35,531 bases of DNA from a virus, in IMG/VR virus record IMGVR_UViG_3300025383_001390, positions 1 through 35,531 of that record. One strand, 5' to 3'. The notes beneath the pieces are model-generated. The model searched no databases. It was not told the origin of the DNA and was given only the letters and a program-made list of their open reading frames with translations. Shown one piece after another: positions 1 through 662 of this stretch. The position numbers and the translations under genes were made by a program. Each line of letters begins with the position of its first letter. Position 1 is the first letter of the stretch.

Positions 1-468
1 AGTTCGTTTATTCTTGGACAAGCCTCGCCTTCAGTTGAACCTCTCAACTCTAACTACTTTGTGAAGGACTTAGCTAAAGGCAAGTTTACGTATAAGAACC
101 CTTATCTCGAAGCTTTACTTGAAACCAAGAAGAAAAACACTGATGGTGTTTGGAAGTCTATACTTGTAAAAGGTGGTTCAGTACAACATCTCGAATTCCT
201 TACGTCTGAAGAAAAAGGCGTATTTAAAACCTTTGGTGAAATTAGTCAAAAAGAAATAGTGATTCAAGCTGCTGCACGTCAAAAGTATATTGATCAAGGC
301 CAATCATTAAATTTAATGATTCCACCTAGCACTAAACCAAAAGACGTTAACGAACTAATAGTATTTGCTTGGGAGAACGGCATTAAGAGTCTTTACTATC
401 AACGTTCTGCTAACCCTGCACAAGAACTAGCACGTTCCATATTAACCTGTTCAAGTTGTGAGTCGTAA
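1..468 (+). CDS. nrdA: Ribonucleoside-diphosphate reductase large (alpha) subunit, C-terminal part (5' end outside window)
   Basis: The frame is open from base 1 and gives 155 residues of the C-terminus of a class I ribonucleotide reductase alpha chain, which reduces ribonucleotides to deoxyribonucleotides for phage DNA synthesis. Visible marks are the S-x-E-P-x-x-S-N segment near residues 11-18, the conserved helix with RQKYIDQ-x-QSLN (about 93-104), and SLYYQRS at 130-136. The Tyr-Tyr pair there matches the radical-transfer tyrosines of the family. The tail ends in CSSCES (150-155), the mobile C-terminal cysteine pair that is re-reduced by thioredoxin or glutaredoxin. A GTG at 61 is only an internal codon; the true start lies upstream of the window. 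The stop codon overlaps the start of the next gene by 1 nt, so the two are co-translated. The beta subunit is not in the window. Confidence 0.93.
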   Translation, partial: SSFILGQASPSVEPLNSNYFVKDLAKGKFTYKNPYLEALLETKKKNTDGVWKSILVKGGSVQHLEFLTSEEKGVFKTFGEISQKEIVIQAAARQKYIDQGQSLNLMIPPSTKPKDVNELIVFAWENGIKSLYYQRSANPAQELARSILTCSSCES

Positions 469-662
469 TGGAGCTCAAGCTAAGACATACTCATTGTGTT
501 TGCAATAATCTATCTTACAAAGAAATTATACATCTTGTTGATAAACATGATGATATAAAAACAATAAAAGACTTGCAACAGTACTGTACATGCGCTGATA
601 GATGCAACCGTTGCAAGTCTGATATACAAAAAATTATTGATTTTTTTAAAAACGAAAAATAA
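468..662 (+). CDS. Small BFD-like [2Fe-2S] protein
   Basis: A 64-residue protein with the layout of bacterioferritin-associated ferredoxin (BFD) domains: C10-x-C12-N near the N-terminus and C46-x2-C49 about 33 residues later. In BFD domains these four cysteines hold a [2Fe-2S] cluster. Two further cysteines (C40, C42) lie just before the second pair. The ATG overlaps the nrdA stop (taATG), so it is probably translationally coupled to the reductase. In E. coli a small [2Fe-2S] ferredoxin, YfaE, is encoded beside nrdAB and helps maintain the diferric-tyrosyl radical of NrdB. This protein sits in the equivalent place but belongs to a different iron-sulfur fold. A role in supplying iron or electrons to the reductase is inference. 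Confidence 0.75.
   Translation: MELKLRHTHCVCNNLSYKEIIHLVDKHDDIKTIKDLQQYCTCADRCNRCKSDIQKIIDFFKNEK

Follow-up and report, generated by a model that had tools for sequence, protein, structure and literature searches.

A predicted [2Fe-2S] protein of the BFD family encoded directly behind nrdA in a phage: a candidate helper of class Id ribonucleotide reductase

The nrdA-bfd locus

The window, that is, the whole stretch of DNA analysed here, is a 35.5-kb virus record whose left end lies inside nrdA, the gene for the large subunit of a class I ribonucleotide reductase (RNR). The 3' part of this gene (positions 1-468, plus strand), truncated by the window edge, encodes the C-terminal 155 aa of a subunit of the NrdE-prime type; this fragment matches the NrdA C-terminus family of Pfam (Ribonuc_red_lgC, E 3.4e-26) and ends in a CxxC tail (ILTCSSCES). 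The last codons of nrdA are GAG TCG TAA, and the stop codon (466-468) has one base in common with the ATG (468-470) of the next gene on the same strand, as the initial annotation had pointed out. This gene, denoted bfd (468-662, with the TAA at 660-662), encodes a 64-aa BFD-domain protein, a predicted [2Fe-2S] carrier according to Pfam, an AlphaFold model and a match to the structure of Bfd. The TAATG overlap (466-470) is the same in many relatives (e.g., L001-L011) and likely couples the translation of nrdA and bfd. The bfd product contains a C-x-C...C-x2-C pattern that consists of two putative pairs of cluster ligands, Cys10-x-Cys12 (495-503) and Cys46-x2-Cys49 (603-614), all four of which are invariant in 20 homologues. 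The additional Cys40-x-Cys42 (585-593), which had been said to set the protein apart from ordinary BFD domains, is indeed an unusual and well-conserved feature: Cys42 is invariant in the alignment of the 20 homologues and Cys40 is present in 19, the exception being L018.

Given that nrdA is truncated by the left window edge, nrdB falls outside the window and was read from relatives instead. Downstream, the window encodes a T4-type clamp loader and a dUTPase. The gene directly after bfd (677-1642) encodes a lipoprotein-like protein with an LFFTGC lipobox, a coiled coil and C-terminal membrane segments; this protein shows weak holin-like similarity and has look-alikes in L010, L006 and L064.

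Family assignment and predicted fold

The only Pfam match of the 64-aa protein is to Fer2_BFD (E 2.6e-7; 31.3 bits, with a curated cut-off of 26). This family scores above the cut-off in nine of the 35 records searched, which are only those with the nrdA-linked gene. Thus, the BFD-type domain that had been proposed from the cysteine pattern is recognized by profile comparison, and the structure prediction suggested as a check yielded a BFD fold. Specifically, in a search of the PDB with a template-free AlphaFold2 model (pLDDT 79.7), the best four matches are all Pseudomonas aeruginosa Bfd (TM 0.61-0.69), with E values near 1, as expected because the protein has only 64 residues. A second structure aligner gives Z 6.8 for P. 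aeruginosa Bfd (1.9 A over 55 residues) and Z 2.1 for the next non-Bfd entry. Membership of the modelled protein in the BFD fold appears to be well supported, and we infer from the sequence that Cys10, Cys12, Cys46 and Cys49 bind a [2Fe-2S] cluster. No match was found in a phmmer search of PDB sequences, and the sole PDB profile matches, to Fpg zinc fingers (E 0.2 and above), were taken as chance; a BFVD fold search with the model gave no significant match.

The phage protein and P. aeruginosa Bfd (PDB 4E6K, 6E6R) have the BFD domain, four equally placed ligand cysteines and the same predicted fold in common but show only 11% identity. The conserved glycine beside the third ligand cysteine is lost in the phage protein, which on the other hand has the near-invariant Cys40 and the invariant Cys42 as extra residues. 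The gene neighbourhood differs as well, phage bfd adjoining nrdA rather than bfr. Furthermore, the 64-aa protein scores 21.2 bits with the NCBIfam model PRK10509 (the Bfd equivalog), below the cut-off of 75. The hot spots by which Bfd docks to bacterioferritin (Bfr) are Tyr2 and Leu5, the latter being Leu, Ile or Val (PMC12363616, PMC13136788). The place of Tyr2 (position 8) is occupied by T or G, with Tyr in none of the 20 homologues, and the place of Leu5 (position 11) is V in some homologues and S, T, G, N or Y in others, whereas the cellular Bfd of Veronia retains MYVCLC. Judged by the missed PRK10509 cut-off and by the docking hot spots, which are not kept, the phage protein is not Bfd proper.

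Distribution and conservation of the phage gene

Scans of viral contigs identified bfd in 32 further contigs, that is, 33 including the window. In every carrier, the gene lies directly after nrdA (62 of 62 fetched copies, several contigs having been fetched repeatedly), and in the operons that are visible in full, nrdB (323 aa) comes first, followed by nrdA (550 aa) and then bfd. The TAATG overlap is retained in one clade, and in another clade the apparent start is a GTG 12 or 24 bases later. The gene is under purifying selection (median dN/dS 0.18, highest value 0.49, in 46 pairs with dS between 0.1 and 1.5). A chance open reading frame is ruled out by the conservation, the dN/dS values and the Pfam score; bfd is a genuine conserved gene.

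The expectation of the initial annotation that related phages would have the gene in their nrd loci holds for these 32 contigs but not for many other close nrd loci, from which bfd is missing. When the presence of bfd is mapped on an NrdA tree (46 sequences), at least five state changes are needed, and phages with near-identical RNRs differ in this respect (L013 has the gene and L037 does not). In L006, bfd is located between nrdA and an SGNH-like gene, which in L034, L040 and L042 directly follows nrdA. Because so many close nrd loci, including those of phages with an almost identical RNR, are devoid of bfd, the gene is accessory and not an obligatory partner of the RNR.

No significant homologues of the 64-aa protein were detected in isolated phages or plasmids. 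Among 80 bacterial loci around class Id nrdB, none contains a small BFD-like CxC...CxxC gene, and bacterial class Id operons were accordingly rejected as the source of bfd. The 398 genomes searched from the phylum of Veronia pacifica yielded just two weak matches, both within proteins longer than 900 aa. In the open-licence literature, we found no report of an nrd-linked BFD protein or of a phage-encoded BFD.

The partner enzyme is a class Id ribonucleotide reductase

In the PDB, the relatives' NrdB finds its best matches in two class Id proteins, from Leeuwenhoekiella blandensis (6sf4) and from Flavobacterium johnsoniae (6cwo). Each of the 108 relatives' loci in which these positions are covered has Glu66, Lys70, Tyr103 and Thr190, which correspond to the class Id features of a Tyr/Glu pairing, a lysine close to the metals and a threonine as partner of the tyrosine; the other metal-site residues checked in NrdB are likewise invariant across the alignable loci, phage and bacterial. 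The four residues are the counterparts of Glu67, Lys71, Tyr104 and Thr191, the published class Id hallmarks of F. johnsoniae (PMC8463856), which assigns the relatives' NrdB to class Id. The full-length NrdA of a relative (L002:4349-5998) matches TIGR02510 (NrdE-prime) above the cut-off, with 746 bits; the relatives' NrdA proteins consist of 550 aa, align to NrdE-prime nearly end to end and lack an ATP cone. By sequence, then, the RNR paired with bfd is class Id, as read from the NrdB of relatives, the window's own nrdB being out of view, and the phage enzyme is predicted to use a Mn2(III/IV) cofactor. In L125 and L130 (Veronia; two Vibrionaceae), the class Id nrdA is followed on its 3' side by a second gene, the product of which begins like an ATP cone (MIHGINQIQKRDGSIVAFKQEKIS).

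Class Id RNRs, which use a Mn2(III/IV) cofactor, are activated by superoxide (PMC8463856, PMC6754362). These enzymes reportedly need no activase, Mn(II) and superoxide suffice for assembly of the beta subunit in vitro, and no NrdI was found to be encoded near class Id genes (PMC8463856).

The class assignment affects the comparisons with known RNR helpers. The parallel drawn in the initial annotation was with YfaE of the Escherichia coli nrdAB operon, which resembles the phage protein in being a small [2Fe-2S] protein (a prediction in the case of the phage) whose gene adjoins class I RNR genes. YfaE belongs to the plant-type Fer2 family, distinct from the BFD family, and maintains the diferric-tyrosyl radical of a class Ia NrdB; no Fer2 match was found on 15 phage contigs. 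Given that the relatives' NrdB is the manganese enzyme of class Id and not the di-iron enzyme of class Ia, the parallel does not carry over directly as it was put. NrdI, the class Ib activase, is another small redox protein of nrd operons, and in supplying the oxidant for a Mn2 cofactor it plays the role proposed below for the phage BFD protein. The folds of the two are unrelated, however, NrdI being a flavodoxin-like flavoprotein.

Occupants of the slot behind nrdA in other class Id phages

In class Id phages of other clades, the gene right after nrdA often encodes an acidic protein of 45-70 aa with a CxxC...CPxCG pattern and frequently overlaps the nrdA stop codon. Proteins of this kind are encoded in L206, L209, L210, L213, L215, L217-L223, L226-L228, L230-L233, L239, L242, L255, L265, L270, L272, L273, L278, L280 and L283; no named phage family fits them well. 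Pfam detects only weak zinc-ribbon and rubredoxin-like similarity, and the matches of a structure of this family, to MCM zinc domains and to HypA, are weak as well (best E 0.3). With one representative per nrdA type, controls from the same loci and simple gene calling, two cysteine knuckles are encoded by 15 of the 20 small slot genes but, among the 177 small genes elsewhere in the loci, by only 8 (Fisher p 5e-13), a ratio that is indicative only, having been obtained on the loci where the pattern was first noticed.

In phages of Rhizobiales and Rhodobacterales with a class Id RNR, the slot or the next one is occupied by a glutaredoxin. The glutaredoxins of Agrobacterium phage Atu_ph07 and Sinorhizobium phage Phosso share their place after class Id nrdA with the BFD protein but belong to an unrelated family; they are thiol-disulfide enzymes for NrdA and not Fe-S electron carriers. 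Other genes after nrdA vary widely and include those for Hsp20, SGNH-like, lipoprotein and radical-SAM-like proteins. Considering the enrichment of cysteine knuckles and the glutaredoxins of other phages, the slot after nrdA is likely tied to the redox or metal chemistry of the RNR.

Possible function of the phage BFD protein

Several roles can be envisaged for the 64-aa protein. The BFD fold itself, with P. aeruginosa Bfd as the closest solved structure, would fit a phage Bfd that frees iron from host bacterioferritin for the benefit of the infected cell. The missing Tyr2 and the poorly kept place of Leu5, where cellular Bfd retains its motif, argue against such ordinary release from iron stores, as do the predicted use of manganese by the paired RNR and the lack of ferritin-family matches on 15 phage contigs, so that this role appears distinctly improbable. 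A protein that resembles BFD in shape but binds zinc and has a structural or regulatory task in place of a redox function is brought to mind by the zinc-ribbon-like protein in the same slot of other class Id phages and by the five or six cysteines of the BFD protein. The spacing of these cysteines and the fold fit a [2Fe-2S] BFD rather than a ribbon, which makes the zinc alternative very improbable.

A role closer to the RNR would be to reduce or protect the thiols of NrdA, with its C-terminal CxxC tail, in place of glutaredoxin, perhaps via Cys40-x-Cys42. The glutaredoxins in the same or the next slot of Rhizobiales and Rhodobacterales phages, the invariance of Cys42 and the failure to find thioredoxin or glutaredoxin on the BFD-phage contigs (mostly fragments) are compatible with this notion. 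Nevertheless, BFD has not simply replaced glutaredoxin, which the BFD-less freshwater relatives do not have either; furthermore, a [2Fe-2S] carrier handles one electron whereas a disulfide needs two, and Cys40 is lost in L018. We consider the thiol role improbable. Finally, bfd might be a generic accessory gene that is carried along in the RNR operon with its high expression, and its Fe-S product might deliver electrons to a different enzyme, of the host or of the phage; the slot after nrdA would then be no more than a variable site. Such a carrier would be patchily distributed among near-identical RNRs, as is observed on the NrdA tree, and would be at home among the diverse genes found after nrdA; yet all BFD copies were found behind nrdA and none elsewhere, and the slot is enriched in small cysteine proteins. 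On balance, a generic carrier seems unlikely.

The explanation that we tentatively favour, although we would place it a little short of probable, is that the BFD-fold protein is a [2Fe-2S] one-electron carrier that serves the phage class Id RNR as a helper in building up or restoring the Mn2(III/IV) cofactor. A T4-like freshwater phage would make the protein from an nrdB-nrdA-bfd transcript; the protein would bind its cluster through Cys10, Cys12, Cys46 and Cys49 and would presumably be reduced by a host ferredoxin reductase. It could then donate electrons to Mn clusters of NrdB that are inactive or too far oxidised or, alternatively, react with O2 to produce superoxide beside NrdB. Reduced Bfd readily loses electrons to O2 (PMC12363616), and the activator of class Id NrdB is superoxide; hence a BFD protein could supply superoxide locally or reset the Mn clusters. 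In either case, it would be a conditional booster and not an essential subunit. The BFD fold, the constant adjacency to nrdA in 33 contigs, the dN/dS well below 1, the class Id NrdB and the enrichment of the slot in small cysteine-knuckle proteins speak for a carrier that serves the RNR. In Pseudoalteromonas, a host nrdA-nrdB-ferredoxin operon is the most induced one on phage infection (PMC7082346), which would be in keeping with a need of infected cells for a helper of this kind. Against this explanation stand the self-sufficiency of class Id enzymes in vitro, the 80 bacterial loci without a BFD-motif gene and the absence of bfd from phages with a nearly identical RNR. In addition, Bfd clusters are damaged by reactive oxygen species, mainly peroxide, a sensitivity that would be awkward for a maker of superoxide.

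As to how class Id RNR acquires and renews its manganese-oxidant cofactor in the cell, the literature states a requirement for Mn(II) and superoxide alone. The 64-aa phage protein, the gene of which has a constant place behind class Id nrdA, is a simple, testable candidate helper. The evidence suggests that a familiar domain may have taken on a role that is new and linked to RNR, and that the phage would bring a helper of its own for an enzyme that supposedly requires none. If this is the case, the protein would be, as far as the present searches go, the first BFD-type protein with a link to RNR, and no other accessory protein would have been proposed for class Id before it. The recurrence of small cysteine-knuckle proteins after phage nrdA suggests a common need that can be tested across several phages. 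The more general proposal, that class Id RNRs have dedicated phage activators in the same coupled slot, of the BFD type here and non-homologous metal-knuckle proteins elsewhere, we regard as clearly unlikely.

Two further observations concern other genes of these loci. In many relatives, a gene for an Hsp20-type small heat shock protein follows bfd or nrdA (L002:6207-6614, L012:6200-6616 and L080). In Rhizobium phage RHph_Y65 (L124:3468-3731), the slot is taken by an unrelated gene that starts inside the nrdA stop codon and encodes an 87-aa protein with a YCHDC motif.
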